Below, one piece after another: positions 6,613 to 23,014 of a DNA stretch of 44,312 nucleotides. Below the pieces are notes generated by a model. The model did not search any database. It was not told the DNA's origin and saw only the letters and a list, made by a program, of their open reading frames with translations. Both the position numbers and the translations under genes were made by a program. Numbering within the stretch: position 1 is the stretch's first letter; the number at the start of each line of letters is the position of its first letter. Source of the stretch: Sulfurimonas sp. (lineage in GTDB: Bacteria; Campylobacterota; Campylobacteria; Campylobacterales; Sulfurimonadaceae); assembly GCA_026988315.1 (NCBI GenBank), contig JALSLJ010000077.1:1-44312 (forward strand). Direction: 5' to 3'.

Positions 6613-6997
6613 CTCTCTTTCCTGTTATCACACCTGGACATTCTAAACTCAACTCATCAACTCTTGTTTTATAATAGTCCCAAAACGGAAAAGTCTTACA
6701 TTGTAAGGGTCTTGCATCATAAATTTTACATCCATTAGAGTCTCTGTTGTAAAATATACATTCATGTGAATCATTAAATATAATCTCTTTTATAGAGTAT
6801 TTATACCCTTTTTTAAAAAGGTATTGTTTAGTAAACTCATTCACTTGCATATGCAACAACTCAGCAATCTTTTCTATCTCACTCTTATTAACATAGATAT
6901 AGCCACTCTCACCCGTACAGCACCTTCCTTGACATGAGGAACAAGCAAGGGGATTAAAAGCAAATGAAAAACCATCTTTTTGTACTATATTTTGCAT
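6605..6997 (-). CDS. YkgJ-family cysteine cluster protein
   Basis: Small soluble protein (130 aa) of the YkgJ / UPF0153 type, a family predicted to bind zinc or an iron-sulfur cluster. The cysteine pattern is clear: CSSCQGRCC at residues 19-27, then HECIFYNRDSNGCKIYDARP and LQCKTFPFW in the second half. The function of the family is not firmly known. It overlaps the upstream methyltransferase by 13 nt and the downstream TPR gene by 8 nt. Confidence 0.85.
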   Translation of the reverse strand: MQNIVQKDGFSFAFNPLACSSCQGRCCTGESGYIYVNKSEIEKIAELLHMQVNEFTKQYLFKKGYKYSIKEIIFNDSHECIFYNRDSNGCKIYDARPLQCKTFPFWDYYKTRVDELSLECPGVITGKRDV

Positions 6998-7680
6998 TTA
7001 ATACTCTGAGTAGAAGCTTTTTTATAAATATTTTGAGCTTCACTAGAAAACTCATTCCCATCAAAACTAATAAGCGGTGGTAAAATCTTCATCAGTGATT
7101 TTGAACCATTCCTTACATGTATCATCACTAAAGAAGCCTTTTTATCTATTTTTGGATGTACAAATCGTACATCAACAACTCTTAATTTCACTCTATCAAG
7201 TGCAGCACAAATCAAACCAAATTGCGAAGCATCATAACAAAATATAAAATGTGCCTGCGGTTTTAACAGCCTTGTGATTTTTTTAAAAAAATCACCTATT
7301 GGCAAGTTACTATTATACCTTGCATTAAACAACATCTTATTATCACTTTTAGAAGCCCCATCATGATAAAAAGGGGGATTTGAAATTATATATTCATATT
7401 TATTACTTTCTTCAAGTTCTAAAAAATCACCCTCATGTATTGTACATGCAATTTTATTTACTCTTGCATTAGTAGTAGCATAACGAACAAAAATCTCTTG
7501 TTTTTCAACCGCTTCTAACTCTACACGGGGATTATCCCTCGCAACTAAAAGACCAACAATTCCACATCCTGCACCAACATCCAGAACTCTCCCTTTTGGA
7601 TTAAAAGAGCTTATAAAATCATATAAAAAAATTGAGTCACTATTGTAGCAGTACCCTGAATCAGGCTGGTAAAGTAGCAT
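6985..7680 (-). CDS. tRNA1(Val) (adenine-N6)-methyltransferase-like protein
   Basis: Class I SAM-dependent methyltransferase (231 aa) of the TrmN6/YfiC type, which modifies A37 of tRNA-Val1 in gamma-proteobacteria. The SAM-binding loop is VLDVGAGCGIVGLL (about residues 35-48) and the catalytic NPPF tetrad, typical of N6-adenine methylation, is at about residue 104. The early QPDSGYCYNSDS segment matches the family N-terminus. The exact tRNA substrate in this organism is inferred. It lies 14 nt downstream of the small 68-residue gene and overlaps the YkgJ-type gene. Confidence 0.8.
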   Translation of the reverse strand: MLLYQPDSGYCYNSDSIFLYDFISSFNPKGRVLDVGAGCGIVGLLVARDNPRVELEAVEKQEIFVRYATTNARVNKIACTIHEGDFLELEESNKYEYIISNPPFYHDGASKSDNKMLFNARYNSNLPIGDFFKKITRLLKPQAHFIFCYDASQFGLICAALDRVKLRVVDVRFVHPKIDKKASLVMIHVRNGSKSLMKILPPLISFDGNEFSSEAQNIYKKASTQSIKCKI

Positions 7681-7910: not shown

Positions 7911-9209
7911 CTAAAAATCAAATATATCATCAAAATCATCGCCGCTATCTGCTGGCGCCTCATCCATTTTCAACATCCCACCAATTGTTTGACAATTTAC
8001 AACAATAGTATCATTCATAAAGTCAACACTTGGAGCACCCGTCTCAAATGACATCTCTATCCAATTTGACATATCATTACTAAAAGCCTTACACATTGGT
8101 CCAAGTTCTTTTGAGTATTTTATAAACTCAGGGATGTGTGTTGCCATATCGCTTGATAAAACAGCTAAAGCTTGTGAGATACTATATACTTCACTGTATG
8201 TAGAAAGGATAGAAGCCATTCTGTCTAAAAGTGTATATATTTCAACTATCTCTTCCTCTTGTATATCTCCACTTCCAACAATAAGCATTAGAGAATTAAG
8301 TTTACCAGCGTACTCCTGTAAATCACTTAAATCCTCCGCATCAAGATAGTCAAACACCTCTAAAACCTCTGCTGAAGCTTTATACTCTGTAGGTAAAACA
8401 GGCTCTTCTTGGGTAATAGCTACTGCTTCTAATTCTTCTATAGAAGACACCTTTTCTAGTTCAAAGGAGATTTTTGTATCTGCAACTTTATACTCACATG
8501 GAACACTGTTTTTCTTTAAAGTCAACTCTACAACTTTTGCTGGTAACTCATCTATTTTTGTAAGGGAAAAATAGATACAATCCTCAGAATCTTCTACATA
8601 TATTTCACTGATTATTGAGAGTCTAACTTGTATATCTGCTAAAGCAAATATAGCACGAACCACATCACTTAAATTATCATATTTCTCTTCAGCACTCAAA
8701 AGATAGTACTCCCAAAACTCTGAAAGTGCATCCTCCGAGTTTATTGAAAACTTAATATGTCTGCTAAAAATATTTGCTGTAAAAAGGTTTATTTTTGCTG
8801 TGTTAGCAACTTTTGCATGACTTCTTGCTTCAATTAATGTAAAATAATTCGCTATTCTACTTGTAAATATATCGGCGTTTACAGGCTTTGATATATAATC
8901 CTCTGCACCATTACTCAAAATAAGTTTTTGTCTCACGCTATCATCAACTGCAGAAACAGCGATAATCATAATTTTTTTATCATTTTCACGAATTAGTTTT
9001 GTAGCTTCAATACCATCCATATTTGGCATCATTATATCCATTAAGACTATATCGTAGGAGTTATCTTGACACATTTTAACAGCTTCCAACCCATCTTCAG
9101 CCTCATCGATTGAAATATTTACACCATCATTGTCATCCATATAATCTTCTAAAAGAAGTTTTAGTATCATTCTATTATTTTTATTATCATCCACAATTAA
9201 TATATTCAT
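7911..9209 (-). CDS. Response regulator with novel output region and acidic C-terminal tail
   Basis: Last of the chemosensory genes (432 aa). Residues 1-125 are an intact receiver: acidic pair VDD near the start, phospho-Asp in VLMDIMMPNMDG, and Lys in ISKPVN. Residues about 130-400 match no output domain I know; they are partly helical, lack a DNA-binding motif, and have no GGDEF or HD-GYP signature. The protein ends in an acidic-aromatic tail, SGDDFDDIFDF, resembling the tail of the CheZ-like protein in the same operon. Its start overlaps the histidine kinase gene by 4 nt (ATGA), so the kinase is its likely phosphate donor. Confidence 0.85.
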   Translation of the reverse strand: MNILIVDDNKNNRMILKLLLEDYMDDNDGVNISIDEAEDGLEAVKMCQDNSYDIVLMDIMMPNMDGIEATKLIRENDKKIMIIAVSAVDDSVRQKLILSNGAEDYISKPVNADIFTSRIANYFTLIEARSHAKVANTAKINLFTANIFSRHIKFSINSEDALSEFWEYYLLSAEEKYDNLSDVVRAIFALADIQVRLSIISEIYVEDSEDCIYFSLTKIDELPAKVVELTLKKNSVPCEYKVADTKISFELEKVSSIEELEAVAITQEEPVLPTEYKASAEVLEVFDYLDAEDLSDLQEYAGKLNSLMLIVGSGDIQEEEIVEIYTLLDRMASILSTYSEVYSISQALAVLSSDMATHIPEFIKYSKELGPMCKAFSNDMSNWIEMSFETGAPSVDFMNDTIVVNCQTIGGMLKMDEAPADSGDDFDDIFDF

Positions 9210-10726
9210 TGTTTAGTATCCTTTTTACCTCTAATTACCACTCGTGCTCCACCTAATTTTTTAGACTTTAGCAACTCTATTTTAAAACCCATTTTATCAC
9301 ACAACGACTTAACAATATAAAGCCCAACACCTGTTCCTTTTGCCGTTCTTGTCATATCATCTTCACTAGACTGTTCAAAAAGTAAAAACACATTTTTTTT
9401 GTTTAAAAATCCATCGCCATTATCTAAAACTTCAAGTACAAACTCTTTATGATTTGATTTTAGAGTAATAGCTATAATACCTCTCGAATACTTCACTGCA
9501 TTGGAAATCAAATTATTTAAAATTTGCAGCATCCTTTCCTCATCGCATGCGATTATACATTCAGTTTTATACGATTCAATCACCCTAATATCTTTTAAAT
9601 CATCACCATACTTTAAGAGAGCTCTTTGTATGAGATTATTTAACGAGAAACTAGAAATATTGAGTTCAATCTTTGAATCTCTAAGCTTAATAGCTTCTAT
9701 GAGGTTTGTTATCATATCTAACATATGCCAGCCACTTGCATGTATCTCTTTTACTTGCTCAACAAGCTTGTCCCTTTTTTTAAAATTTTCTTTTAAGAGA
9801 TGTTTTTTTACATATTCTGAAAAATTTATTATTGCATTTAAAGGTGTTTTAAGCTCATGTGTAAAAACAGTTAAAAAAGAATCTTTTATTTTGTTTACCT
9901 CTTTAATATGCTCAAGTTTTTGTAATTTTGTATCTATCTCTTGTTGTTTAATTTTTCTAGCAGAATATACAATCTCTGAGACATCATTACTAAACACTAG
10001 ATACTCATTTTCTTCATTATCATTTAAGATAGGAACAGCGATAACATCTATGATATTATCTCTCTTATCTTCAAATATAAAAGTTTGCCTATCTCTATAT
10101 ACCTTGTGTTCTTTTAATCTATCCCAGACAACTTTCATATCAATGTTTGAATTATTTAAAGGGTTTATTAGCCCTGCAATAGCCTGATCATAAGTGAGTC
10201 CTGTTGTTTTACAAAAAGAGTCGTTTACATCAAATATTTTACCATCTTTATCATGCTTACTTACACTAAATGAAATATCAATAGCATCTTTGTAGTTTTG
10301 AAGCATTTTTTTTTGATCTTCAAACTCTTTATGCCATAGTTTCTCTATAGCTAACTCCTCTATCACTCTAAACAACAGAGATGGCTCTACTGGTTTATTA
10401 AGATATTTATCTACCTGAAAATCAATGGAACGCTTAAAAACCAGAGAATCAACTTCATTTTCCATTATCAGTATAACAGCCTGAGAAGGATTTTTAATCT
10501 TTACCTTTTCAATAAACTCTATACCACTCAAACTTTTTAGCTCTTGTGATACCAAAACAATATCTGGACTTATTGCATCAAAAAGTTCTAATGCTATATT
10601 TCCATCATCACTAACATAAGTTTCATGTCCAGTAGTAACCACCCATGCTTCTAGTTTTTTTAGTAATTTACTATCCGCTTCGGTAATTAAAATATTTAAT
10701 TTTGAGTTTATAGAATTAGCTTTCAT
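9206..10726 (-). CDS. Histidine kinase with pseudo-receiver, PAS, HisKA and HATPase domains
   Basis: Soluble 506-residue sensor kinase without a membrane segment. Domains in order: a receiver-like domain (about 10-125) in which the phospho-accepting Asp is replaced by Ser60 (IVLVSQEL) although the distal Lys (NKP, Lys111) is kept; PAS (about 140-250); a short coiled coil; HisKA with phospho-His290 in THELKTP; and HATPase_c with NNLISNAVKY, DNGDGF and GTGVGLYIVKSL. The receiver cannot be phosphorylated normally, so it may serve for binding. It is translationally coupled to the response regulator downstream and 3 nt from parA upstream. Confidence 0.9.
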   Translation of the reverse strand: MKANSINSKLNILITEADSKLLKKLEAWVVTTGHETYVSDDGNIALELFDAISPDIVLVSQELKSLSGIEFIEKVKIKNPSQAVILIMENEVDSLVFKRSIDFQVDKYLNKPVEPSLLFRVIEELAIEKLWHKEFEDQKKMLQNYKDAIDISFSVSKHDKDGKIFDVNDSFCKTTGLTYDQAIAGLINPLNNSNIDMKVVWDRLKEHKVYRDRQTFIFEDKRDNIIDVIAVPILNDNEENEYLVFSNDVSEIVYSARKIKQQEIDTKLQKLEHIKEVNKIKDSFLTVFTHELKTPLNAIINFSEYVKKHLLKENFKKRDKLVEQVKEIHASGWHMLDMITNLIEAIKLRDSKIELNISSFSLNNLIQRALLKYGDDLKDIRVIESYKTECIIACDEERMLQILNNLISNAVKYSRGIIAITLKSNHKEFVLEVLDNGDGFLNKKNVFLLFEQSSEDDMTRTAKGTGVGLYIVKSLCDKMGFKIELLKSKKLGGARVVIRGKKDTKQ

Positions 10727-10729
10727 ACT

Positions 10730-11470
10730 TTACAATCTTTTGAGAAGTTCAGTTACGCATTGATTATAGTCTTTTAATCCTTTAGAACGCTTAGAATCTA
10801 AAACGATTGGAGACCCAGATTCAAACTGTTTTGCAAGTTTAATATCTACCCCGATTGGGGAGAGAAGTTTTGCCGAACCAAAAGAAGTTTTCACCTTAGC
10901 AACTGACTCTTTATGCTCATTTATATGTGGATTATACATCACTGGTAAGATCGATACATCTGCTATTTCACGCTCTAACGAAGAAGCACTCTGATACAGA
11001 GCACGAAGCATTTGTCCAACTGCTACAACTCCTAAGTGATGTGGTACAAAAGGGATAACGACACTATCTGCAACCTCCAAGGAATTTTTAAGAAGTGCGT
11101 CAAATGTAGGGGGAGTATCGATAACACAATAGTCAAAAAAATCTGCTATTTTTTCTCTTTTAAAACGGCTCTTTAATACTCCTCTTAAATCAGAAAACTC
11201 ATAAACATCAAAAAAAGCGAGGGCAGGAGAGAGAGTTAAATTTTCATGAACTGTTGGAATAAATGTTTCACTTAATGTGCTTCCACTAAAAATGGAATGT
11301 ACACCCAACTCCTCATTTGGTTCACAACCAACACCAATGGATGCATGCCCCTGTGTATCAAAATCAAGAAGCAATACCGATCCGTGTTTCGCTAAACCAC
11401 TCGCTAAATTAACAGCCGTTGTAGTTTTAGCAGAACCACCTTTACGATTACTGATTACAATGGTCTTCAC
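10730..11470 (-). CDS. ParA/Soj-family ATPase of the chemosensory operon
   Basis: ParA-type deviant Walker ATPase (246 aa). The frame extends to a TTG at 11479, but the GTG at 11470 is preferred: it gives MKTIVISNRKGG and places AGGA 10 nt upstream. Walker A is RKGGSAKTTT, with Ala where the last loop Gly is usual (KGGVGKTT); Walker A' is LLLDFDTQGHAS, and the B strand is YCVIDTPPT. It sits in a che operon without a ParB partner, which is typical of ParA proteins that place chemosensory arrays (ParC of Vibrio, PpfA of Rhodobacter) rather than segregate DNA. That role is inferred. It overlaps the 90-residue gene by 23 nt. Confidence 0.88.
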   Translation of the reverse strand: MKTIVISNRKGGSAKTTTAVNLASGLAKHGSVLLLDFDTQGHASIGVGCEPNEELGVHSIFSGSTLSETFIPTVHENLTLSPALAFFDVYEFSDLRGVLKSRFKREKIADFFDYCVIDTPPTFDALLKNSLEVADSVVIPFVPHHLGVVAVGQMLRALYQSASSLEREIADVSILPVMYNPHINEHKESVAKVKTSFGSAKLLSPIGVDIKLAKQFESGSPIVLDSKRSKGLKDYNQCVTELLKRL

Positions 11471-11720
11471 TAGAATCAAATCCTTTCAATACTACCTCAT
11501 AAAGCTTTTTGTTTTCACCAAACTCATATCTACAGCTATAACTTTTCTTATATGCCGTAATTAGTTGTATGATTGCAAGATGAATATCATCACACTCTAC
11601 AAAATTCATATTTACTTCATCTGGTGCTTTTTCTTGTAAAAAATCTCTAAAAGAGATCACCTCATCTTCATAAATGACTGATGAAAACACCGCTTTGTTC
11701 TCTTCATATACAATTGCCAT
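11448..11720 (-). CDS. small STAS-like protein of the chemosensory operon
   Basis: A 90-residue soluble protein between cheW and parA. Its length and pattern resemble a STAS domain: N-terminal strands, a central segment VNMNFVECDDIHLAIIQLI in place of the usual strand plus D-S-x-G-L helix, and a last strand before the C-terminal helix. The phosphorylatable Ser of anti-anti-sigma STAS proteins is not evident, so regulation by phosphorylation is doubtful. Assignment is by pattern only. Its place between an array adaptor and ParA makes it a candidate link between the two. Confidence 0.6.
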   Translation of the reverse strand: MAIVYEENKAVFSSVIYEDEVISFRDFLQEKAPDEVNMNFVECDDIHLAIIQLITAYKKSYSCRYEFGENKKLYEVVLKGFDSSEDHCNQ

Positions 11721-11729
11721 ATCATCTCC

Positions 11730-12161
11730 CTATTTTGGAATACTTACAGTTTTAATAACATTTACTAAAACACCATCTATATCTAATACGCCCTCGAGTT
11801 CTAAATATTGATTTTTACCATGCTCATCTTCGGAATGCATAATATCTGATTCTTCAATATGTGCAATATCTTCTATAGAGTCAACCTTTATGGCAAAATC
11901 ACTACCATCATTTTCATAAAACAATAATTTCAATGAGGAATCTTCAACCTTTACATTTTCATCTTCATGAGGGGGAAGTCCTATAAGTTTACGAAAATTC
12001 AATACTTTAATTATATTGTTTTCGTAAGACATCATCCCATCTACAAATTCGTGAGCATTTGGTATCTCTGTTAATTCAACTACTTGAATTATTCTGTGTA
12101 TATTTTCAATATTGAGAGCATAACTATTACTTCCAACTTTAAAAACAATTAAGTCTATCAT
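11730..12161 (-). CDS. cheW: CheW coupling protein
   Basis: Single-domain CheW (143 aa) linking receptor and CheA kinase in the array. It starts MIDLIVFKVGSNSYALNIENIHRIIQ and shows the typical ...IPNAHEFVDGMMSYENNIIKVLNFRKLIGL segment at about residues 33-63. It lies 10 nt downstream of cheA and 9 nt upstream of the STAS-like gene, within the same transcription unit. A second protein with three CheW folds is encoded at 18651-20009, so this one is probably the canonical adaptor. Confidence 0.93.
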   Translation of the reverse strand: MIDLIVFKVGSNSYALNIENIHRIIQVVELTEIPNAHEFVDGMMSYENNIIKVLNFRKLIGLPPHEDENVKVEDSSLKLLFYENDGSDFAIKVDSIEDIAHIEESDIMHSEDEHGKNQYLELEGVLDIDGVLVNVIKTVSIPK

Positions 12162-12171
12162 TATAAAACCT

Positions 12172-14940
12172 TTAAGCTACTTCAATATCTTCTTTTAACT
12201 TTTGAGAAATCCCTAAAAGCCCTATTGGATCCATTGCCATAATTATCTGTCCATTTCCAAGTAATGCTGTACCACTAAAGAGAGGATGCCCTTCCATAAT
12301 CCCTACAAGAGGTTTTTGCACTACATCTAATTGACCTAAGAACTTGTTAACAACTACAGCTAAAAGATTATCTTTAATATTTAACACAACGATTGAAAGG
12401 GGTTGTTCTTTCATAGCATCTTCATCAAGCATTGATTTTATAAATAGAAGTGGAATAACCTCACCTCTAATATACACAAATGGTTCATTATGCAAGTATT
12501 CTATCTCTTCTCTGTCAAGTTTAACAGTCTCTGAAACACTATCCATTGGGATACCATAGTGAATATCATTCATCTGAATATGGAGTAGAGATGTTACAGC
12601 TAAGGAAACAGGGATAGCCAAAGTGATTGTCGTGCCTTTATTTGCTTTAGTTTTTATACTAATACTACCACCAAAACTTTCTATAGACTTTTTAACAACA
12701 TCCATTCCAACACCACGACCACTAAATTCACTGATAACTTCCACTGTAGATAAACCTGGAATTAAAACTAATTCTGCCATCTCATCTTCGCTTAGTGCAT
12801 CAATCTGTTCATGAGTCATAAGCCCTTTTTCAAGAACTTTATTTGCGACGCGTTCAACATTAATACCAGCACCATCATCTACAATCTCTATGATAATTCT
12901 GTCAGATTGCGCAAAAGCTCTTAATTTTACAGTTCCACTACCGCTTTTACCCTTTTGCTCTCGTACTTCTGGTGTTTCAATACCATGATCTAAAGAATTT
13001 CTCATAATGTGTATCATCGGATCAGCTAACATCTCAATCATATTTTTATCAAGCTTTGTGTCACCACCATCCATCTCTAGCTTAACCTTTTTACCAAGTT
13101 TTTTAGCAATGTCACGAACAAGCTTTGGATACCTGTCAAATACATAAGAGATTGGTAACATTCTCATCCCCATGATTAAATCTTGAAGTTGTTCTGATAA
13201 GCGGTTTATAAAGATATACTTCTCCATAATCTCACGCTTAATCATATCGTGTGTCATTCCAACGACATTATCTGCCAAATAAGGTAAAGAGTTTTTAGCA
13301 ACAAGAAGCTCACCCACTACATTCATGAGTGAGTCTATAGACTCTTGATCAATTTTAACTGTTTTACCAACAACAGCTTTTTGAGGAGCCTCTTTTTTAG
13401 ATACACTCTTAACAGGTTTTGTAATCTCTGCGGCATCTGTTTTCATTGCAACTTTAGGATTTTCAACCTTTGGTGTAGCTGGAGCAATTTTTTCTATTGT
13501 AACTTTTTCAGCCTGAACCTCTTGCTCTTTAGTTTCAACAGCACTCTCTTTCACACTCTCTTTTGGTGCTAAAGCTAACTCAGTTTCTAAAAATTTTGCA
13601 ACATCCTCTTTAGAATCAAAACTTGGCATTGAAGCGTTGTATCTTCTCACCTTATCCATGATAAAAAGAACTCGCTCTAAATCATCATCGCCAGTAATCT
13701 CATCAAGTGCTTTATATTGTTGGTTCATAATCTCTGTTAGTATTATTTTAACATCTTCACTTGCTTCAATAGTGTTTTCACTTGCACTAGAACCGTCTTC
13801 TTTCTTATCTTCTTGAACTTTTTCAGCCTCTATAACTATCTCATTCTCATCACTAAGTGTTGGTACTGTATCACTATTAAATACTTCACCCTTATATAAG
13901 TTTTGAAAGAAAGGTGTTAATTTTGAGAGATCAGATTCTTCTATTAAACCTGCAATATCTACAAATCTTTTGAGTTGTGCAAACTGTAATGTATCATTAC
14001 CAACCAACTCCATAGATTTTGTTATTTTTTCAACTATTGTGACTATATCATTCTCATGAGTTATATTACTAAACTCTTTTAATAAATCTAATTGATGCCC
14101 TGCATCTCCAACATCTATAGACAAAAGAGTTGACACATCTAAAGGCAATAGTTGGAGTTCATCTATGAAGTTAAAAAGTGAATCTTCAATATCTTCATAT
14201 GTTGCATAAATATATGCAACCATATATGATTTTAATAGTAAACCCTCTTCATCTTCAGTACCACTTAAAACACATTTAGCGTTTTCTTCACTCATACATG
14301 AAAAAACACCCAACACTTTATCCTCCAAAAGAGAGAGTGTATAAACTGGATCATTTCCATAGACCATACAGGACTCATCAACATCAAACACTACAGCATA
14401 TAAATTCTCGCTAGAACAAAACTCTTCATTAATCTCTTGGTTTTTAAATAGAATTTTTTTAGAATCTATCCCTCTCAATGTAGATAATGGAATATTAATA
14501 ATATCTTGAACATTATTGACTTGTAAAAATGGAACTTCCCAGCTACTTTCAGTCACAGCAGATTTACCCATCTGATTGTTTAATTCTTCAATAATTCTAG
14601 ATACTGCTTCTTCATCAGCATCGACAATTTCCCCGCTCTCTTCAGCAGCTTCAATAAGGTTCATAACCTCATCAAATGCATCATAAAGTACAGCAGTCAT
14701 ACTATCAGCAAATTCAATTTTTTCAGCTCTTAACATATCAAGCAAATCTTCAGCATGATGTGTTATATCTTTCACAGATTCAAAACCAACGATCCCACTG
14801 CCACCCTTTAAAGTGTGAGCAGCACGAAATATAGAGTTTAAAAGTTCAGGGTCATCTCCACCTATCTCTTCAATATTTTGATCAATAAAGGCTAAATTTT
14901 CTCTTGCTTCACTTAAAAACTGTTCTAATAATGGATCCAT
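12172..14940 (-). CDS. cheA: CheA histidine kinase without fused receiver
   Basis: Array kinase of 922 residues. Domains: Hpt/P1 at about 1-125 with phospho-His42 in AAHTLKGGSG; a long region (about 130-500) with no recognisable P2, containing alpha/beta segments then a Glu/Lys/Pro-rich linker; P3 dimerisation around NVVGELLVAKN (about 540); kinase P4 with MRNSLDHGIE, DDGAGIN and SGRGVGMD (about 625-770); and a CheW-like P5 to the end. It stops soon after P5, so it has no C-terminal CheY domain, unlike the CheAY common in Campylobacterota. Its phosphate targets should be the two CheY proteins and CheB of the operon. Confidence 0.96.
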   Translation of the reverse strand: MDPLLEQFLSEARENLAFIDQNIEEIGGDDPELLNSIFRAAHTLKGGSGIVGFESVKDITHHAEDLLDMLRAEKIEFADSMTAVLYDAFDEVMNLIEAAEESGEIVDADEEAVSRIIEELNNQMGKSAVTESSWEVPFLQVNNVQDIINIPLSTLRGIDSKKILFKNQEINEEFCSSENLYAVVFDVDESCMVYGNDPVYTLSLLEDKVLGVFSCMSEENAKCVLSGTEDEEGLLLKSYMVAYIYATYEDIEDSLFNFIDELQLLPLDVSTLLSIDVGDAGHQLDLLKEFSNITHENDIVTIVEKITKSMELVGNDTLQFAQLKRFVDIAGLIEESDLSKLTPFFQNLYKGEVFNSDTVPTLSDENEIVIEAEKVQEDKKEDGSSASENTIEASEDVKIILTEIMNQQYKALDEITGDDDLERVLFIMDKVRRYNASMPSFDSKEDVAKFLETELALAPKESVKESAVETKEQEVQAEKVTIEKIAPATPKVENPKVAMKTDAAEITKPVKSVSKKEAPQKAVVGKTVKIDQESIDSLMNVVGELLVAKNSLPYLADNVVGMTHDMIKREIMEKYIFINRLSEQLQDLIMGMRMLPISYVFDRYPKLVRDIAKKLGKKVKLEMDGGDTKLDKNMIEMLADPMIHIMRNSLDHGIETPEVREQKGKSGSGTVKLRAFAQSDRIIIEIVDDGAGINVERVANKVLEKGLMTHEQIDALSEDEMAELVLIPGLSTVEVISEFSGRGVGMDVVKKSIESFGGSISIKTKANKGTTITLAIPVSLAVTSLLHIQMNDIHYGIPMDSVSETVKLDREEIEYLHNEPFVYIRGEVIPLLFIKSMLDEDAMKEQPLSIVVLNIKDNLLAVVVNKFLGQLDVVQKPLVGIMEGHPLFSGTALLGNGQIIMAMDPIGLLGISQKLKEDIEVA

Positions 14941-14949
14941 ACTATCTCC

Positions 14950-15315
14950 TTAGCTATTAATTAATATCTCTATATATGCCTGAAGTTGATTTGGCTTTAT
15001 TGGCTTTGTCTCAAAAATATTTGCACCAACCTTAAAAGCATTCACCTTGTCTTCTTCTTTTGCTTGAGTTGTAATCATAATAACTGGTACAGTCTTATGA
15101 TTCTCCTGTTTTCTTAAATCTTGGATGAAAGAGTAACCATCCATTATTGGCATATTAACATCCACAAGGTAAAGATCTATATTTGAATCTAAACTTTTCT
15201 CTAACGCTTCCATACCGTTCTCAGCTTCTACTACATCAATCCCCATAGATTTAAGTATAGAACCATGATAACTTCTCACTGTTTTTGAATCATCTACAAC
15301 CATTACTCTTGTCAT
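14950..15315 (-). CDS. CheY-type single-domain response regulator (first)
   Basis: Stand-alone receiver of 121 residues. The acidic pair is VVDDS, the phospho-Asp lies in LYLVDVNMPIMDG (about residue 53), Thr in VIMITTQ and Lys in ETKPIKP (about residue 103) are present. It has no output domain, so it acts by protein contact like CheY. It lies 9 nt from both cheA and the CheZ-like gene. Whether it goes to a flagellar motor or another target cannot be seen here. Confidence 0.92.
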   Translation of the reverse strand: MTRVMVVDDSKTVRSYHGSILKSMGIDVVEAENGMEALEKSLDSNIDLYLVDVNMPIMDGYSFIQDLRKQENHKTVPVIMITTQAKEEDKVNAFKVGANIFETKPIKPNQLQAYIEILINS

Positions 15316-15324
15316 CTTCTTCTC

Positions 15325-15717
15325 CTAAAAAAATTCTATCTCATCAAAGTCTGTATTATCTGTTGACTTACCAGAAAATCTATTTTTTTTATCTTTTGCA
15401 TCATTAATTGTTGTCGCAAGCTTTTCTTGTAATTTTTTTATACTATCTACTGCTAAAGTTTCATCAGTTTTATGTGAATGATTAAATCTATCAATATTAC
15501 TTTGAACACTATCAATTGCCTCTATAATAGCAGTAAGCTGTTGAGAAATAATATCTTGATATTGCAAAGCTTTTGCAACATCATCATCTACCTCAAGGTT
15601 ATTTTTTTCTATATAATTACTAATCATCAATAGTGAATCACTAGATAATTTAATAGCATCTATCTGAACATCTTTAATGTGTGTTAATAGTTCCTCTACT
15701 GATTCTAATATAACCAT
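15325..15717 (-). CDS. CheZ-like phosphatase
   Basis: Helical 130-residue protein between two cheY genes. The segment KALQYQDIISQQLTAIIEAID has the CheZ active-site arrangement QD-x3-Q (Asp55 and Gln59), equivalent to Asp143 and Gln147 in QDLTGQ of E. coli CheZ, in which the Gln positions the attacking water on CheY-P. After a flexible Lys/Ser/Asp-rich linker it ends DNTDFDEIEFF, an acidic-aromatic tail comparable to the C-terminal CheY-binding helix of CheZ. It is shorter than classical CheZ (about 210 aa). Role inferred from motif and position. Confidence 0.78.
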   Translation of the reverse strand: MVILESVEELLTHIKDVQIDAIKLSSDSLLMISNYIEKNNLEVDDDVAKALQYQDIISQQLTAIIEAIDSVQSNIDRFNHSHKTDETLAVDSIKKLQEKLATTINDAKDKKNRFSGKSTDNTDFDEIEFF

Positions 15718-15727
15718 CTTATGAACC

Positions 15728-16105
15728 CTACGCCGGTAGTCTTAAAACTCTAGTAATAGCTTGTTTTAACTGTGCTGGATTAAATGGTTTTACTATCCAT
15801 CCAGTCAACCCTAAAGCTTTACCTTGTTGCTTGAGTTCTGCTTTTGTCTCTGTTGTAAGCATTAAGCACGGTGTTCTCTGCGTCGCTGGAACTTTTCTCA
15901 GAGCCTGCAAAAACTCAAATCCGTTCATCACAGGCATATTGAGGTCAGTAATGATTAAATCTGGTGTCATCCCTGCTTCTATCTCTGCTAAAGCGACTGT
16001 CGCTTCTGTATATTGTTTTACCTCTATTGGCATAGAGTTTGTCACTATCCTAGTTGAAGCTAAAGCTGTTTCACTATCATCTACAAATATTACTAATGGC
16101 ATCAT
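15728..16105 (-). CDS. CheY-type single-domain response regulator (second)
   Basis: Stand-alone receiver of 125 residues with acidic pair VDDSE, phospho-Asp in LIITDLNMPVMNG (about residue 55), Thr in LMLTTET and Lys in IVKPFNP (about residue 107). The start has two tandem ATGs (16105 and 16102); AAGG lies 5 and 8 nt upstream, and the second has the more usual spacing. It differs clearly from the other CheY in this operon, so one may be the output and the other a phosphate sink. It lies 7 nt downstream of cheR. Confidence 0.92.
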   Translation of the reverse strand: MMPLVIFVDDSETALASTRIVTNSMPIEVKQYTEATVALAEIEAGMTPDLIITDLNMPVMNGFEFLQALRKVPATQRTPCLMLTTETKAELKQQGKALGLTGWIVKPFNPAQLKQAITRVLRLPA

Positions 16106-16112
16106 TTTTTCC

Positions 16113-16943
16113 TTATTTTTGATAAATTAATGTTTTGTCTATTTTTCTTGCTTTAAAAACAGATACTATTCTACTCATATATTCAGCATGGCCTAAAAGA
16201 ACATAACCACCTGGGTTTAACATATCGTAAAAAGTCATGGCAACCTCTTTTCTTGATGCATCATCAAAATAAATCAACATATTTCTTGAAAAAATAACAT
16301 CAAACTTACCTAGATTTCGCATCTGTGTTTTGTCAAATACATTTGCTACTTGAAAATCCACCGTTCCATTTAAATCATCACCCAATTGATAACCAATTTT
16401 TTTCTTCACAAACCACTTTTTTAAAATATTTTTTGGTATTGCATGAATCGCTCTATCACTATATTTTGCAATTTTAGCTTTTTCAATGACAGATGAGTCA
16501 ATATCGATACCTACAACTTCTATATCTCTCTCCTCAACAACTTTACCCTCTTCAACAATATGCAATATTATTGAGTATGGCTCCTCACCAGTCGAACATG
16601 GCGATGATAAAATTCTAATTGGTTTTGAGGCTGGCAATCTTTTATGCAACTCCGGCAAGATACTATTGACTAAAACTTCAAACTGGTCTTTCTCTCTAAA
16701 AAAGTAAGTTTCATTCACAGTTATTGCATTCATCAACTCCTGAAACTCTTCACCCTCTTTATCTTCAAAACGAAGCTTAAAAAAGTATTTTCTAAAGTTA
16801 TCTATCCCCAAGGCTTTAGCGCGGCTATCTACAAATTTTGCCAATTTGTCAAAATGTTTTTCCTCTTCAAGATAAATTCCACTTTTTCTGTAAATAAACT
16901 CCCCTATTTTAGAAAAGTTTTCTTTTGATAAAAGGTATCCCAT
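16113..16943 (-). CDS. cheR: CheR chemoreceptor methyltransferase
   Basis: SAM-dependent methyltransferase (276 aa) that methylates Glu side chains of the MCP for adaptation. The N-terminal helical CheR domain (about 5-75) contains VNETYFFREKDQF at its end; the C-terminal Rossmann domain has ILSSPCSTGEEPYS (SAM loop, about 110-125), VVGIDID and DVIFSRNMLIYFD. It ends NPGGYVLLGHAE plus a short tail. No receptor in the window carries a CheR-tethering pentapeptide. It is 3 nt from the HEAT-repeat gene. Confidence 0.95.
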   Translation of the reverse strand: MGYLLSKENFSKIGEFIYRKSGIYLEEEKHFDKLAKFVDSRAKALGIDNFRKYFFKLRFEDKEGEEFQELMNAITVNETYFFREKDQFEVLVNSILPELHKRLPASKPIRILSSPCSTGEEPYSIILHIVEEGKVVEERDIEVVGIDIDSSVIEKAKIAKYSDRAIHAIPKNILKKWFVKKKIGYQLGDDLNGTVDFQVANVFDKTQMRNLGKFDVIFSRNMLIYFDDASRKEVAMTFYDMLNPGGYVLLGHAEYMSRIVSVFKARKIDKTLIYQK

Positions 16944-16946
16944 CGC

Positions 16947-17570
16947 CTAACCTTTTATCGATTTGATGGCACTATCAACTGCAAACTCTGCATAAAAATC
17001 ACCATCAAATCTATCTTTTAAAGATTCTAAAAGTTCTATATCTTCCTCTTTACCAATCTCAGCCATATAATCAACAGCCGTCATAGCTACATTTATATCA
17101 TCTTCATGCTCTAAAAGCTCTATAAGCATATCTCTTGATTCTGCAAAATCAACATCACCCAATACATTAATAGCAAAAATTCTTAAGTCTCTATCATCAC
17201 CTATAAGAAATTTTACAATATAGTATTTTATAGCATTACCAAAATCTCTTAAGATAGAGATACCAAGATTTCTAACATAGGCATTATCAAGTTTAAGCAA
17301 ATCCATAATCTGCTCTATTGGAGCCTCTTGTGGGTCTAAATTTGCTAATATTGTGGCTATTTTAGTTGAAACCTCTTTGTTTGCATCCTCATCTTCAATA
17401 TACTTTATAAGGTAAGTCCATCCACCCTCTAACTTTGAAATCTCCTCTACAGCATAATCTTTTTTTTCTAACTCATCATTAGATTCAAAATACACTATAG
17501 CCTCTTCAAGGTTTGATAACTTTGGTAACTCTTCAATCTCTTGCTTTTGATGATTTTTTATTAAAGCCAT
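16947..17570 (-). CDS. HEAT-repeat protein
   Basis: Soluble all-helical protein of 207 residues made of HEAT-like repeats of about 31 residues: for example NAYVRNLGISILRDFGN, DLRIFAINVLGDVDFAE and DINVAMTAVDYMAEIG, each with the Asp/Asn-x-x-Val-R turn pattern. HEAT solenoids bind other proteins. It lies between cheB and cheR with gaps of 9 and 3 nt, so it probably acts with the adaptation enzymes or the array. No catalytic motif was seen. Confidence 0.85.
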   Translation of the reverse strand: MALIKNHQKQEIEELPKLSNLEEAIVYFESNDELEKKDYAVEEISKLEGGWTYLIKYIEDEDANKEVSTKIATILANLDPQEAPIEQIMDLLKLDNAYVRNLGISILRDFGNAIKYYIVKFLIGDDRDLRIFAINVLGDVDFAESRDMLIELLEHEDDINVAMTAVDYMAEIGKEEDIELLESLKDRFDGDFYAEFAVDSAIKSIKG

Positions 17571-17579
17571 ATGCCACTC

Positions 17580-18641
17580 CTACTTTAGTGTTGCTATTTT
17601 CTTTAGAATTTGAGAAAATGTAAGTTGTTCCATAACCCCTCCTCTATCATATGCCTCTTTTGGCATACCATAAACAGTTGCACTCTCTTCACTCTCACCC
17701 AAGGTATAGGAGCCAGATTTTTTTAATTTAACCATCCCATCTGCTCCATCATCACCAATCCCAGTTAATATAACTCCAACAAGCTGCGATGGATCAAATA
17801 CATCCAAAGCACTAAACAGCATCTCATTAACACTTGGTTGAAAAAAATTATCACCCTTTTCTTTATCTTCTCTTATTACTATTTTTCCAGATACTTTTTT
17901 TGCAAAATTCATATGAACACCACCACGAGCAACATATATATTGCCTGGCAAAAGTTCCATATTGTGGGAACTTTCATGTACATTAAGAGCACTTACTCGA
18001 TCTAGTCTAGTTGCAAACGCTGATGTAAACTGTGCTGGCATATGCTGCACTATGCAAACTGGATATTTATAGTTTGAAGGTAAAGCTGCACAAATCTGCT
18101 CTATAAGTCCTGGTCCGCCTGTAGAGGAACCAATCATTACCACCTTAGTGATATCTTTACTAGAGCTAAGCTCTTCTTTTTGTGTTGTTCGCTCAACTCT
18201 TTTTCTTTCACGCACTCTAGGTCTTGAGACCTGTTGCTTAAGTCTTCTTAATGGAATGCGGCTCAAAGATTTTACTTTTTGAATTATCTCTTCTCTATTC
18301 TCATTTTTACCTACATTCATTGTTCCAGGCTTAGAGATGTAATCAATCGCTCCTAAGTCCAGAGCTTCCATCGTTATAGTGGCATCTTCAGTTGTTAAAG
18401 AACTGACCATTAAAATCGCGGTTGGCTGTTTATTCATAATTTGCTTTACAGCTTCTATACCATCCATCACTGGCATATTAATATCCATAGTTATGACATC
18501 ATATTGAGTTTGTGTAGCTTTCTCTACAGCATCTTTGCCATTTCTAGCTGTATCAATTTCAAAATCTAATATCGAAATAATTTCTGTAAGCTGTTTTCTA
18601 ACAAGAGCTGAATCATCAACAATAAGTACTTTTTTCGCCAC
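17580..18641 (-). CDS. cheB: CheB methylesterase/deamidase
   Basis: Removes methyl groups from, and deamidates, MCP glutamyl sites (353 aa). N-terminal receiver: VDDSALVRKQL, phospho-Asp in VITMDINMPVMDG (about residue 55), Lys in ISKPG. A basic linker (about 140-160) leads to the esterase domain with the catalytic triad Ser in GSSTGGPG, His in VQHMPAQFT and Asp in GIGDDGADGM. All three residues are present. The operon has no CheD, so CheB and CheR are the only visible adaptation enzymes. Confidence 0.96.
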   Translation of the reverse strand: MAKKVLIVDDSALVRKQLTEIISILDFEIDTARNGKDAVEKATQTQYDVITMDINMPVMDGIEAVKQIMNKQPTAILMVSSLTTEDATITMEALDLGAIDYISKPGTMNVGKNENREEIIQKVKSLSRIPLRRLKQQVSRPRVRERKRVERTTQKEELSSSKDITKVVMIGSSTGGPGLIEQICAALPSNYKYPVCIVQHMPAQFTSAFATRLDRVSALNVHESSHNMELLPGNIYVARGGVHMNFAKKVSGKIVIREDKEKGDNFFQPSVNEMLFSALDVFDPSQLVGVILTGIGDDGADGMVKLKKSGSYTLGESEESATVYGMPKEAYDRGGVMEQLTFSQILKKIATLK

Positions 18642-18650
18642 TTTTTTCTC

Positions 18651-20009
18651 CTAATCTAAAGACAAAATCTTATCTATATCTATAGATAAAACTAATCTTT
18701 TTCCATTATCTAAATGCAATACACCCGTAAATGTATCATCCTCTTGCTCTTTAATATCATTGAAGTCAACCTCTAAAATATCACTTACACTATCTACTAT
18801 AAAGCCTATTTTTACATCGTTAATGCGGCAAATTATAATCTTTGAATCATCATTTATTTTTGTTGGTATTTTTAACTTTTTAAATAAAGAGACTATCGTA
18901 ACAATTTGTCCTCTTATGTTAATGATTCCATCGATCACTTCATCGGTATAAGCTATTTTTGTTGCATCCACAATATCAATAATTTCAGCTACATTCTCAA
19001 CTTCAAATGCATACTCTTTACCTGAAAGCTTAAATATAATAGCTTCCATTTTGCTTTTTTTCATCTCATCATCGATCAACACCAACTCAGTAGAGTCTAT
19101 AAATGCTTCATTCTCATTAAAAAGTCTCTCTAAAACTTCATGATCAAAAAATGAGATAAGAGAGTTTTCATCATGAATAACACCTGATATTTTATTGTCT
19201 TCAAAACTATCACGCATATATTCTACATCTTCAATGGTAAAATTTTTTATATCAATAATATTATCAACAAGCAATCCAATTCTTTTTCCAGAGTATGAAG
19301 CAATCAAAATACGGTTTTTATCACTTACTAGGGCTTTAAAACCATAATATTTTCGTAAATCAATTACCGTAATTAAATCTTCTCTTAAGGTGATAAGACC
19401 TAAGACCTCTTGCGATGCAGCAGTGATTTCTGTGTATTGAATATTTGCCAAAATTATCTCTTGAAGGTATTCAATATTTAAAGCAAACTTTTCGTTGGCC
19501 ATGGAAAAAATTAAAAATCTATTTGTATCTTCTTCCTGTTTAACTTCAAGCTTAAGCTTTCCATTCCTAATCTCTTTTGCTTCTATTTTGACACTATTTA
19601 ATTTTGAAAATAAAATATTCAAACTAAGCACTTGCACTAACTTATCGTTATGTTTGTATATTGCAATTACAGGGTCATTTTTTTTATCTACATATTCTAT
19701 TTTTTCTTGATCTATCTCTACGGTGTTATAAACTTCGCTCACTAAAAGGGTGTTGGATGAGTGCAAATCATTTAAACTTAAAATTCTAGCAGATTCAGCC
19801 TCGTAGTCAACCTCTTGCATATCAAGTAAAAGATTCATATCAATCACAGTAACTATATTTCCACTTACAGCACACAGTCCCCTTACCCCTGCAGGCTTGA
19901 GGGGTAATGGCATCAATGTCGGTACTCTAGAAATCTGGTTTATATTTTCAATAGGTATTCCATAACTTTCTAAACCATTTCTGATGATTAAGATCTCTTC
20001 TATTTGCAT
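18651..20009 (-). CDS. Triple CheW-domain coupling protein
   Basis: A 452-residue protein made of three CheW folds in tandem, about residues 1-145, 160-300 and 310-452. Each repeats the family pattern: IRNGLESYGIPIENINQI then VRGLCAVSGNIVTVIDMN; MANEKFALNIEYLQEII then VLGLITLREDLITVIDLR; LSGKEYAFEVENVAEII then IDGIINIRGQIVTIVSL. There is no receiver domain, so it is not CheV, and no kinase. It could bridge several CheA or receptor units in an array. It is 3 nt downstream of the MCP gene and 9 nt upstream of cheB. Confidence 0.9.
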   Translation of the reverse strand: MQIEEILIIRNGLESYGIPIENINQISRVPTLMPLPLKPAGVRGLCAVSGNIVTVIDMNLLLDMQEVDYEAESARILSLNDLHSSNTLLVSEVYNTVEIDQEKIEYVDKKNDPVIAIYKHNDKLVQVLSLNILFSKLNSVKIEAKEIRNGKLKLEVKQEEDTNRFLIFSMANEKFALNIEYLQEIILANIQYTEITAASQEVLGLITLREDLITVIDLRKYYGFKALVSDKNRILIASYSGKRIGLLVDNIIDIKNFTIEDVEYMRDSFEDNKISGVIHDENSLISFFDHEVLERLFNENEAFIDSTELVLIDDEMKKSKMEAIIFKLSGKEYAFEVENVAEIIDIVDATKIAYTDEVIDGIINIRGQIVTIVSLFKKLKIPTKINDDSKIIICRINDVKIGFIVDSVSDILEVDFNDIKEQEDDTFTGVLHLDNGKRLVLSIDIDKILSLD

Positions 20010-20012
20010 CTT

Positions 20013-21899
20013 TTAGCCTTGTTGCAGTTCATCCGCCATTACAGCCAACTCTTCTACACCTTCACTGATATGAGAAACAGTTTCGATGATAAGCTCACTC
20101 GCTTTACGAGACTCCATAGCATTTCTTGCAGATAGCTCTACTGCCTTTTGAATCTCATTAATGCCTATCATAACCTGATTCATACCTTCAATATTTTGAT
20201 CATTAATAGTTTTGAGTCCTGTATATCTATCCAGTAAATCAACAAGCATATCAGTAATTTTTATAATATCATTAATTAGAACATCTATTAATGCTTCCTC
20301 ATTTCCCTGTGAACTCAATAGATTATTCCAATCGCTTCTCACTGTATCAATTTCAGAATTCATAGACTCTACGATATCGTTGATTTTTTCAGTATTACTC
20401 TCTGAGTCTTTAGCAAGATTTCTAATATCTGCACTCACCACTGCAAAACCTTTTCCAAAATCTCCAGCACGAGCAGCTTCAATAGAACCACTAATAGCAA
20501 GCATATTTAACTGCACTATAGAATTAGAGATGTTCCCAACTGTTTTATCAACACTTTTAGTCTCTTTAACAATTACATTTAACTCTGTAGCTGCAGCATT
20601 TCCTTCTGCTATAGACTCTGAAAATGCTTCACGAATCTCTGTAACTGTATTTTTAACAACTGTAAAAGATATTTTTAATAAATCAAAGTTTCTTCGAGCA
20701 ATCTCTATCAACTTGTCTATATCTTTTGCGGCTATAATTCCAGCTTCTATCAACTCTTTATTATTTAATGCGCTCTGATTAGTAGTATGTGATGATGATT
20801 CAATCTGATTGAGAGCATTTGTAACATCCTCCAAGGCAGTTTGTATATCCTCCATTGAGCCACTTATTGTATCAGCAGAAAGTGCAATATCTTCAGCAGA
20901 CTTTATGGAGTCTGTAGAGTATTTCAACTCATCTGCCAAGCTAGAGAGATCTTTAATGTCATCTTCTGTTTGAGAGAGAGCATCTGATTGCACCTCTATA
21001 GAGTTTAAAGTTTTTTCAACTGAAAGGGCTATCTCTTGAGAATCAGTAGCAATATTTTGAGAACCGTCATTGATTTTTACAGCAAAATCACCAAGGTTTT
21101 GGGTATAAGTATTTACACTTCTTGCAGCTTCAACAGAGTAAACTGCAATTTTGGTAAGCTCTTCCATCTTAAGACTAAGACTATTCCCTTTTGAACCATT
21201 GTCAGCAATAATTGTTGTTGTTGAACCGATACTATTTATAATTTTGTCAATACTCCCTTGAATCTTATTTACAAGTTCGGAGATAAATTCGGCATTTTTT
21301 TCACTCTCACCAGCTAAAGCACGCGTCTCATCAGCAACTACCGCGAAACCCTTACCATGCTCTTTTGCTCTACTTGCTTCAATAGCAGCATTTAAAGCGA
21401 GTAAGTTTGTCTGATCAGCAATTTTAGCAATAAACCCAACAGCATCACCAATATTTTGTGATGATTCTTTAAGCTCTTCACTTTTTGTTGATGAAGCTTC
21501 GGCTACCACTACGGCCTTATCCATTCTAGTAACTGAATCATTCACCTTCTGCACAGATATCATGATATTATCACCTGTTGCTAATGTTGATGAGATAACA
21601 GTATCTATAGTTGTATTCATTTTGTTAATATTTGCACGAATGCCTTTAACATTAGATAGCGCCTGCTCACTTGCACCACTATTTTCTTCAGCAGCCGTAG
21701 CAATCTGCTCCATTGACGACTTCAACTCTTCTATCGCACTAACACTCTCTTGCGCATTTTCAAGTATAGTCATTGATACGCCAGCAATACTTTCACTTAT
21801 CTGTTGTTGCTTTGCTAATGTTCTTTGCTTACGCTTATCTCCACCAGAAGATACCATTGTAGAAGATATACCTGAAGTATTTTTTTTCACTAATGCCAT
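20013..21899 (-). CDS. Soluble methyl-accepting chemotaxis protein with two signalling hairpins
   Basis: A 628-residue chemoreceptor without transmembrane segment or sensor domain; nearly all helical coiled coil. Two MCP hairpin tips are present: the first (162-206) has the consensus [14 protein letters not shown]...[10 protein letters not shown]; the second (462-506) reads [18 protein letters not shown]...[10 protein letters not shown]. They are exactly 300 residues apart, as in an internal duplication, and the second has diverged at the kinase-contact tip. The signal is probably received from the Aer-type PAS protein encoded immediately upstream (19 nt). The gene ends 3 nt before the triple-CheW gene. 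Confidence 0.93.
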
Positions 21900-21918
21900 T
21901 ATAAAATCCTTTTAACTC

Positions 21919-22347
21919 TTAATCTAATGTTGCGTAAAGCGCTTGGGCTTTTTTTATATCTTCGCGTGATGGTTTAACTCTAATAGAAACATATTTTGTA
22001 TTTCCATTCTTATCAACTGAGCGTAAAACAGTTGCATATACCCAATAGTGCCCGCCACCTTTTCGTGCATTTTTTACCAACCCTGTCCAAAAACCTTTAC
22101 TCTGAACATCATCCCATAAAGACTTAAATGCTGCACGAGGCATCTCTGCGTGACGAACCACATTATGAGGTTGACCAATCAAGTCCTCTTCTCTCATATT
22201 TGCTATTTTCAAAAAAGAATCACTAGCATATTCTACTATTCCTTTTTCATCTGTTTCTGACAATAGGTACAAATCATTATATAAAACTTCACCATCTTCT
22301 AAAAATGTTAAGCCTTCAGTACTAATTTCATTATTATTATTTGACAC
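21919..22347 (-). CDS. Aer/CetB-type PAS sensor protein
   Basis: Single PAS domain (142 aa), first gene of the chemosensory operon. The core (VEYASDSFLKIANM, LIGQPHNVVRHAEMPRAAF, LWDDVQSKGFWTGLVKNARKGG, YWVYATVLR) is the Aer-type PAS that holds FAD in Aer of E. coli and CetB of Campylobacter jejuni, where it reads redox/energy state. FAD binding here is inferred. The start is GTG at 22347 with GGAGG 6 nt upstream. Like CetB with CetA, it is a separate protein beside its MCP, but here the MCP is soluble. Confidence 0.88.
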   Translation of the reverse strand: MSNNNNEISTEGLTFLEDGEVLYNDLYLLSETDEKGIVEYASDSFLKIANMREEDLIGQPHNVVRHAEMPRAAFKSLWDDVQSKGFWTGLVKNARKGGGHYWVYATVLRSVDKNGNTKYVSIRVKPSREDIKKAQALYATLD

Positions 22348-22593: not shown

Positions 22594-22869
22594 TTAGATA
22601 TTATCACGAATTCCTAAATTTTCTACTAGTTTAAGATATGCTTCTTTATCTTTTCTTTTGAAGTATTTCATTAAACGACGGCGTTTACCAACTAGTTTTA
22701 ATAAACCAAGTCTTGAAGCGTGATCTTTTTTGAATACTTTAAGGTGCTCAGTTAATTCTGCAATTCTTTCTGTCAAAAGTGCAATTTGAACTTCACTTGA
22801 ACCTGTATCACTCTCTGAGCGACCGTATTTTGTTACTATCTCTTGTTTTTTAGCCGAATCTAAAGCCAT
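22594..22869 (-). CDS. rpsO: 30S ribosomal protein S15
   Basis: Ribosomal S15, 91 aa, binding 16S rRNA in the central domain of the 30S subunit. The start is the ATG at 22869 ([12 protein letters not shown]), with AGGAGG 4 nt upstream; an upstream in-frame ATG at 22902 has no ribosome site. Family motifs [32 protein letters not shown] and RRRLMKYF are intact. The leader contains a 7-bp inverted repeat (22902-22922), possibly involved in autoregulation as for S15 in other bacteria. The rpsO/Rrf2/flhA neighbourhood is, as I recall, shared with Campylobacter. Confidence 0.97.
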
Positions 22870-23014
22870 AATAGCCTCCTGATGGGTATAATAATCTAAC
22901 ATTTATACGCAAAATGTATAAAGTTGAAATGGAATTCTAGCTAAACTTTTCTTTAACTTAATTGATTTTACAACAAAGATATTATTTAATCATGAAAATT
23001 TCAATTTCTTTAGA

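Follow-up and report, generated by a model that had tools for sequence, protein, structure and literature searches.

What kind of chemosensory system is encoded by a block of fifteen genes in Sulfurimonas sp., what feeds it, and on what does it act? The block lies at positions 7911–22347 of contig JALSLJ010000077.1 (assembly GCA_026988315.1, 2.19 Mb in 112 contigs), the 44,312-nucleotide stretch called the window here (contig C77 of the genome). Our reading is that it specifies a complete chemosensory system of class F9, present alongside the flagellar F3 system, whose products would form a redox-fed cytoplasmic array most likely not acting on the motor switch; we give this reading a probability of about 0.62. 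It is built on composition, gene order, class hallmarks, coexistence with F3 and residue patterns, all of which can be read directly from the sequences.

Fifteen open reading frames (ORFs), all on the minus strand, fill the block without a break, with gaps of 3 to 19 bases and overlaps of 4 and 32 bases. In transcription order it opens with a stand-alone PAS protein of Aer/CetB type (21919–22347, 142 residues, GTG start; PAS_3/PAS_9), followed by the soluble receptor DosM, with two tandem methyl-accepting chemotaxis protein (MCP) signalling domains in 628 residues (20013–21899), and by CheW3, with three concatenated CheW domains in 452 residues (18651–20009; CheW E 6.2e-68). CheB, a receiver joined to a methylesterase (17580–18641, GTG start; Pfam), a 207-residue HEAT-repeat protein (16947–17570; HEAT_2) and CheR (16113–16943; E 1.1e-51) come next, and then the response regulators CheYa (15728–16105) and CheYb (14950–15315), both matching Response_reg, with a 130-residue CheZ-like protein (15325–15717) encoded between them. 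The remaining genes encode a 922-residue CheA (12172–14940), a second, plain CheW (11730–12161; CheW), a small STAS-like protein (11448–11720), a ParA-family ATPase (10730–11479; AAA_31 E 1.8e-29) that overlaps the STAS-like gene from its listed TTG start, a hybrid kinase of REC-PAS-HisKA-HATPase architecture (9206–10726; Pfam) and a response regulator that also has two parts of unassigned family (7911–9209; Response_reg). The initial annotation had described fifteen contiguous genes forming a complete chemosensory set together with a ParA, a HEAT-repeat protein and a kinase/regulator pair, and the reading frames and their Pfam families confirm this. A simple Kyte-Doolittle hydropathy scan indicated no membrane helix in any of the fifteen proteins; the highest 19-residue mean maximum was that of CheA (1.66), and the values for DosM (1.36) and the PAS protein (0.39) agree with the earlier statement that neither receptor nor PAS sensor has a membrane helix.

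We asked to which chemosensory class the block belongs. Several hallmarks of F9 are present in the window: a tandem-signalling DosM, a triple CheW3, a CheA, CheY, CheB and CheR of its own, and a receptor without a membrane helix. The class is also marked by receptors of the 44H length class and by a flat, double-layered cytoplasmic array some 35 nm thick. Pfam finds two MCPsignal stretches and no other family in DosM, and three CheW stretches at three places in CheW3; these two architectures are described as unique to F9 (PMC9321776; papers are cited here and below from excerpts). CheA is composed of Hpt, a long middle region, H-kinase_dim, HATPase_c and CheW. Response_reg is absent from it, as expected from the annotated lack of a fused CheY. 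In a quick tree of 102 CheA rows, the F9 rows of Campylobacterota and other phyla were separated from F3 plus a 670-residue class (Shimodaira–Hasegawa-like approximate likelihood ratio test, 99), and the Campylobacterota F9 CheAs formed a well separated clade; the tree has long branches and no named class references, and is taken as supporting only. F9 is also reported in zoospore-forming Actinomycetia (PMC10746217), and the Actinoplanes DosM loci fit that published occurrence. The block had been proposed to encode a separate cytosolic array. This stands insofar as the block is separate from the CheAY system, but DosM and CheW3 place it in an established class and not in a new array type.

The F3 system is encoded elsewhere in the same genome. 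Contig C56 carries a CheA with a C-terminal receiver, CheV and CheW, the constituents of the cheV-cheA-cheW arrangement with a receiver on CheA described for the F3 class of Campylobacterota (PMC9321776); cheY lies directly ahead of prmA on C79, and FliM is on C78. Of the 12 receptor matches genome-wide, two are the halves of DosM, and ten further receptor loci lie outside the window. An ordinary F3 system was ruled out as the identity of the block, the window CheA being without Response_reg and the F3 set lying on C56. The annotated separation from CheAY holds: the window CheA is not of the F3 class, and a second che system, that on C56 and C79, is present.

We asked whether the block recurs in other genomes. 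When GTDB genomes were scanned with the second tip of DosM, at least 595 stretches were obtained, of which 511 were confirmed; all locus counts given here come from the best 80, consisting of 42 taken as Campylobacterota (L045–L086; L052 is counted among them because it is the contig of G357, a genome from the same genus as the window) and 38 others (L087–L124, one without a named group). For the scoring of genes, profiles were built on the window together with eight relatives. The whole eight-gene core (DosM, CheW3, CheB, HEAT, CheR, two CheYs, CheA) was scored in 32 of the 42 Campylobacterota loci, a few of its genes as fragments and the CheA of L070 in two frames. The other ten comprise eight that stop at a contig end, L058 without a scored CheYa, and L086, where nothing but DosM and CheW3 was scored. 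Among loci with names, the nearest are assigned to Sulfurimonas or Sulfuricurvum, or only to the level of Campylobacterales or Helicobacteraceae. The exact order PAS-DosM-CheW3-CheB-HEAT-CheR-CheYa-CheZ-CheYb-CheA-CheW-STAS-ParA was found in 20 of the 32 full-core loci. Because this order is kept in 20 of 42 and the eight-gene core in 32 of 42 Campylobacterota loci, the arrangement is not due to chance, and the search for the same gene order elsewhere in the phylum, which the initial annotation had proposed, was positive. Outside Campylobacterota, DosM, CheW3, CheB, CheR and CheA occur together in 29/38 loci, HEAT was scored in 29/38 and ParA in 10/38, and two signalling tips were present in 36 of 37 receptors tested. 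The two commonest orders there (17 loci) read DosM-CheW3-CheB-HEAT-CheR-CheY-CheA-(ParA)-CheY, with the HEAT protein in the same place as in the window, and the core order recurs in Alphaproteobacteria, Actinomycetota and one Eremiobacterota locus.

F9 in Campylobacterota has been described as half sets without a kinase and regulator of their own (PMC9321776, PMC9239204). In the parts of main texts covered by the literature search, a full F9 set was not found named for the phylum; relative to the half sets as described in those excerpts, the full-core, kinase-bearing sets would be new. A literature search found no paper that has DosM together with a HEAT repeat or a STAS domain. The F9 system is uncommon in the phylum, since the HEAT protein was found in only 9 of 397 sampled genomes (eight from the genus of the window, the ninth from a different genus in the same family). 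A scan of viral contigs with the HEAT protein alone gave 10 pattern-matched stretches and 0 confirmed relatives.

The site of the block was examined through its edges, rpsO (S15; 22594–22902, minus strand) and a small methyltransferase gene (6985–7680, minus strand), both identified by Pfam and by comparison of rpsO loci. Among 30 rpsO loci of the genus (drawn from 36 genomes with a match, 41 searched), PAS-DosM directly follows rpsO in seven, the window included; nine have the small methyltransferase within 1.5 kb of rpsO and no PAS/DosM match, and 14 show neither. Because rpsO and the methyltransferase lie close together in nine loci without PAS-DosM, the block is present or absent at one site, which either a single gain with repeated loss or repeated gain could explain.

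We next consider the input. The window PAS protein matched the PAS domain of E. coli Aer (8dik) with E 1.9e-27, and its Arg65, His66 and Glu68 match the set predicted to bind flavin adenine dinucleotide (FAD) in CetB, which shows Arg, His and Glu where Aer has Arg57, His58 and Asp60 (PMC2628428). PAS was found with dosM in 39 of the 42 Campylobacterota loci, the exceptions being L080 and L085 (cut on that side) and L086 (partial set). The suggestion that the system reads redox or energy state is supported by this homology and by the CetB-type Arg-His-x-Glu, although FAD binding is a prediction from residues. A second candidate input was seen in relatives: a second CheW was scored in 31 loci, and in 17 of these it contains an inserted CZB domain with a His, Cys, His-His pattern, residues that we take to be the ligands, while five have a long kind without the pattern and nine a plain CheW, as in the window. 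Pfam CZB was above the cut-off in two of the three tested. CheW-CZB proteins as such are known; they make up 1.4% of CZB proteins and are commonest in Clostridia (PMC8262984). Two second-CheW genes lie near the STAS-like gene in L039 (13448–14596), L060, L061, L067–L070, L072, L075 and L078, and both copies contain CZB in L067, L068, L072, L075 and L078.

The CheZ-like and STAS-like frames had no Pfam match at E 0.001 and nothing in NCBIfam; both are conserved, which rules out spurious reading frames. The CheZ-like protein contains A50-x-x-Y53-Q54-D55-x-x-x-Q59, and AxxF/YQ adjoining DxxxQ is the CheZ signature (PMC7750401). After removal of duplicates, QDxxxQ was found in 39/39 distinct sequences and the full AxxF/YQDxxxQ in 29/39; in 35 aligned sequences H13, Q52, Q54, D55, Q59, Q60, A63, A107, G116 and the last two Phe are invariant. 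An I/V-EFF end closes 36 of 37 long sequences (ILFF in L078), the window protein ending EIEFF. An AlphaFold2 model (mean predicted local distance difference test score 82) is a helical hairpin that has the motif on its second helix and is followed by a disordered tail. The protein resembles CheZ in the signature and its place on the predicted hairpin, in a disordered linker and in a hydrophobic C-terminal end, and differs in its length (130 residues against 214 in E. coli CheZ), the lack of a profile match and the EIEFF tail. Foldseek with this model gave unrelated proteins (best E 0.14) and VIA-align unrelated helical bundles, with no CheZ among the 50 rows shown by either. A search of the genome with PF04344 gave no match above the cut-off and one weak match below it, to a protein with hydrophobic stretches; as nothing in the whole genome passed, PF04344 probably misses the flagellar CheZ as well.

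The product of 11448–11720 has a Cys-x-x-Ile-His-x-Ala stretch in common with other phyla, whose small post-CheA proteins align with it around the Cys and His-x-Ala/Gly. Weak STAS_2 matches were found in three of four such counterparts (E 1.8e-5 to 0.0065, below the Pfam cut-off); the annotated label STAS-like fits in this respect, although the window protein itself has no Pfam match. DosM (7/8 genomes) and the HEAT protein (8/9) start with MAL-hydrophobic-Lys/Arg, followed in DosM by a Ser/Ala-rich stretch and a second basic stretch; this start might be a ParA-contacting peptide.

To consider the output, CheY residues were numbered by alignment to the F3 CheY of the genome, using what we take to be the E. 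coli CheY positions, and duplicate genomes were removed (G361 = L045, G357 = L052). Among 81 F9 CheYs (41 CheYa and 40 CheYb), W58 was found in 0/81, K119 in 0/81 and Y106 in 2/81; CheYa and CheYb of the window lack all three, and the F3 CheY of the same genome keeps them. These residues are tied to FliM binding and were used by Mo et al. to tell motor CheYs apart (PMC9321776). With the principal FliM-contact residues gone from both CheYs, the output most probably lies elsewhere than at the flagellar switch. The tentative proposal of a non-flagellar output gains support from this loss. A CheA match was present in all 41 F9-bearing genomes, with at least two in all but G417. These genomes correspond to 32 of the 42 loci plus nine closely studied genomes (without the duplicates L045 and L052, and without L046, L047, L056, L057, L059, L066, L080 and L082, which are mostly short contigs). 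FliM was found in 40 of the 41, the other being the draft G425, which may be incomplete. F9 thus goes along with flagella, yet its CheYs appear unlike motor CheYs.

The regulator encoded at 7911–9209 is present in seven of nine closely studied genomes, always ending DDIFDF; it was not seen in G357 and G332, where the stretch may stop short of it. The hybrid kinase was found in the window and G266 only among the nine. A model of the regulator had a predicted TM-score of 0.36, and the matches listed by a structure search were filled by the receiver domain, beyond which lie a middle (150–252) and a C-terminal (291–413) part. The alpha/beta order of the middle part is reminiscent of anti-sigma-type ATPase folds. 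A pattern search of the genome for EIEFF plus stop gave three sites, which fall in the CheZ-like gene, at the terminus of another response regulator and, out of frame, within a flagellar ATPase gene; the reversed control gave none. This other regulator, on contig C8 (L043 1501–2565), resembles the 7911–9209 protein in its C-terminal part, with 25% identity over the whole alignment. A 339-residue protein encoded upstream of the HEAT gene in G357 and G332 (L040 6931–7950, L038 5482–6501) also ends EIEFF and has no Pfam family above the cut-off. The EIEFF and DDIFDF tails may bind a common partner.

How does the block compare with known systems? F9 arrays of V. cholerae are double-layered and cytoplasmic (PMC7534058, PMC3964821), and F9 input and output are described as unknown even there (PMC7534058). 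Cluster I of V. cholerae (DosM VC1403, triple CheW VC1402, CheA VC1397; PMC7534058, PMC11940527) likewise has a soluble double-signalling receptor, a triple CheW and its own CheA, CheYs, CheB and CheR. Encoded in the window operon besides these are the single PAS protein of Aer/CetB type, the CheZ-like protein, another CheW and a response regulator with several domains; cluster I in turn includes more receptor genes, mlp13-16 (PMC11940527). Within the same phylum, Nitratiruptor and Nautilia have partial F9 sets that share dosM, cheW3, cheB and cheR with the window but are without cheA and cheY (PMC9321776), in contrast to the complete cluster here. Campylobacter jejuni CetA/CetB also places a stand-alone Arg/His/Glu PAS beside a receptor gene (PMC2628428), although CetA is a membrane receptor and DosM is soluble. 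Finally, the Rhodobacter sphaeroides cytoplasmic cluster has soluble receptors and the ParA homologue PpfA in its operon, as in the window (PMC3964821); PpfA acts via the TlpT N-terminus.

Several points weigh against reading the block as a redox-fed F9 array apart from the motor. FAD and zinc binding are predicted from residues only, and the window's own second CheW is without CZB. Literature searches found no report of an F9 array in Campylobacterota, and the likeness to V. cholerae cluster I is one of description, not of sequence. The CheZ-like protein has no Pfam CheZ, PDB sequence/profile or fold match, and G357/L052 lacks its gene, for which L058 and L069 have no score; the STAS assignment is weak. 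As to the output, Thr87 is kept in 79/81 F9 CheYs (Ser in two), Lys is found at 91 in 24/40 CheYb and at 92 in 33/41 CheYa (Gly at 91 and Lys at 92 in the genome's F3 CheY), and the near-constant company of FliM would also fit motor output. The last point leads to an F9 array that steers the flagellum, as a branch of redox taxis whose CheYs use other motor contacts or compete with the F3 CheY for the F3 kinase. It would accord with the published figure of 97% of F9 species being flagellated (PMC9321776) and with the flagellar genes nearby (FlgH 3286–4011, FlhA 23472–25640). However, FlhA adjoins rpsO also in genomes without PAS-DosM there, so that the neighbourhood is no evidence, and the absence of W58 and K119 from every F9 CheY, and of Y106 from 79 of them, makes such steering unlikely in our view.

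Two further alternatives concern what the block is. There is a small chance that it represents a new chemosensory class merely having DosM and CheW3 in common with F9, as the clade of the phylum's CheAs and the extra genes (PAS, CheZ-like, second CheW, response regulator) might suggest, but the core order with its HEAT and STAS-like genes is common to the Alphaproteobacteria, Actinomycetota and Eremiobacterota loci mentioned above. Slighter still is the chance that DosM and CheW3 serve as a scaffold lent to the F3 kinase, which is what has been suggested for the partial sets of Nautilia and Nitratiruptor. Half sets do occur in the phylum (PMC9321776, PMC9239204), among the present loci in L086 and perhaps in L085, which a contig end cuts, but the window encodes CheYs and a CheA of its own, the latter complete with domains for phosphorylation and ATP binding. 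The complete, additional F9 system is the reading that we retain.

Elsewhere in the window, an Entner-Doudoroff run at 26820–31428 encodes 2-keto-3-deoxy-6-phosphogluconate aldolase, an EDD/ILVD-family dehydratase, a 6-phosphogluconolactonase-type protein and glucose-6-phosphate dehydrogenase. A transfer-messenger RNA (tmRNA) gene lies at 31516–31891, tmRNA being all that an Rfam scan found, and a 500-residue ORF without a Pfam match (1881–3383) overlaps flgH.

How might the F9 system work? By analogy with V. cholerae, DosM would span two opposed CheA/CheW3 baseplates, giving a flat, membrane-free, double-layered array. Because no sensory domain was found in DosM, input would arrive through other proteins, mainly the PAS protein of FAD type, in the way that CetB serves CetA, and in relatives also through the zinc/redox CZB domain that their second CheW contains. 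CheYa and CheYb would receive phosphate from CheA, the CheZ-like protein, a candidate phosphatase by its family resemblance, would remove the phosphate, and CheR and CheB would adapt the array. ParA may place the array, with the HEAT or STAS-like protein as possible adaptors, as PpfA does for the Rhodobacter cluster (PMC3964821), and the 7911–9209 receiver protein is a candidate output. More tentatively, these loci could form an F9 lineage with detached sensors, in which a scaffold receptor is fed by flavin PAS or CZB, the CheZ-like proteins are a new minimal phosphatase family, an acidic-Phe tail common to the CheZ-like protein, the response regulators and one protein of relatives docks on one partner, probably an F9 CheY, and the output is not the motor; we hold this extended version to be possible but doubtful. 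The complete set extends the picture of the phylum, in the excerpts cited, as one with only half F9 sets borrowing another kinase. Putative sensors, a putative phosphatase and a putative output regulator are encoded next to the array genes, which makes the questions of F9 input and output testable in environmental bacteria.

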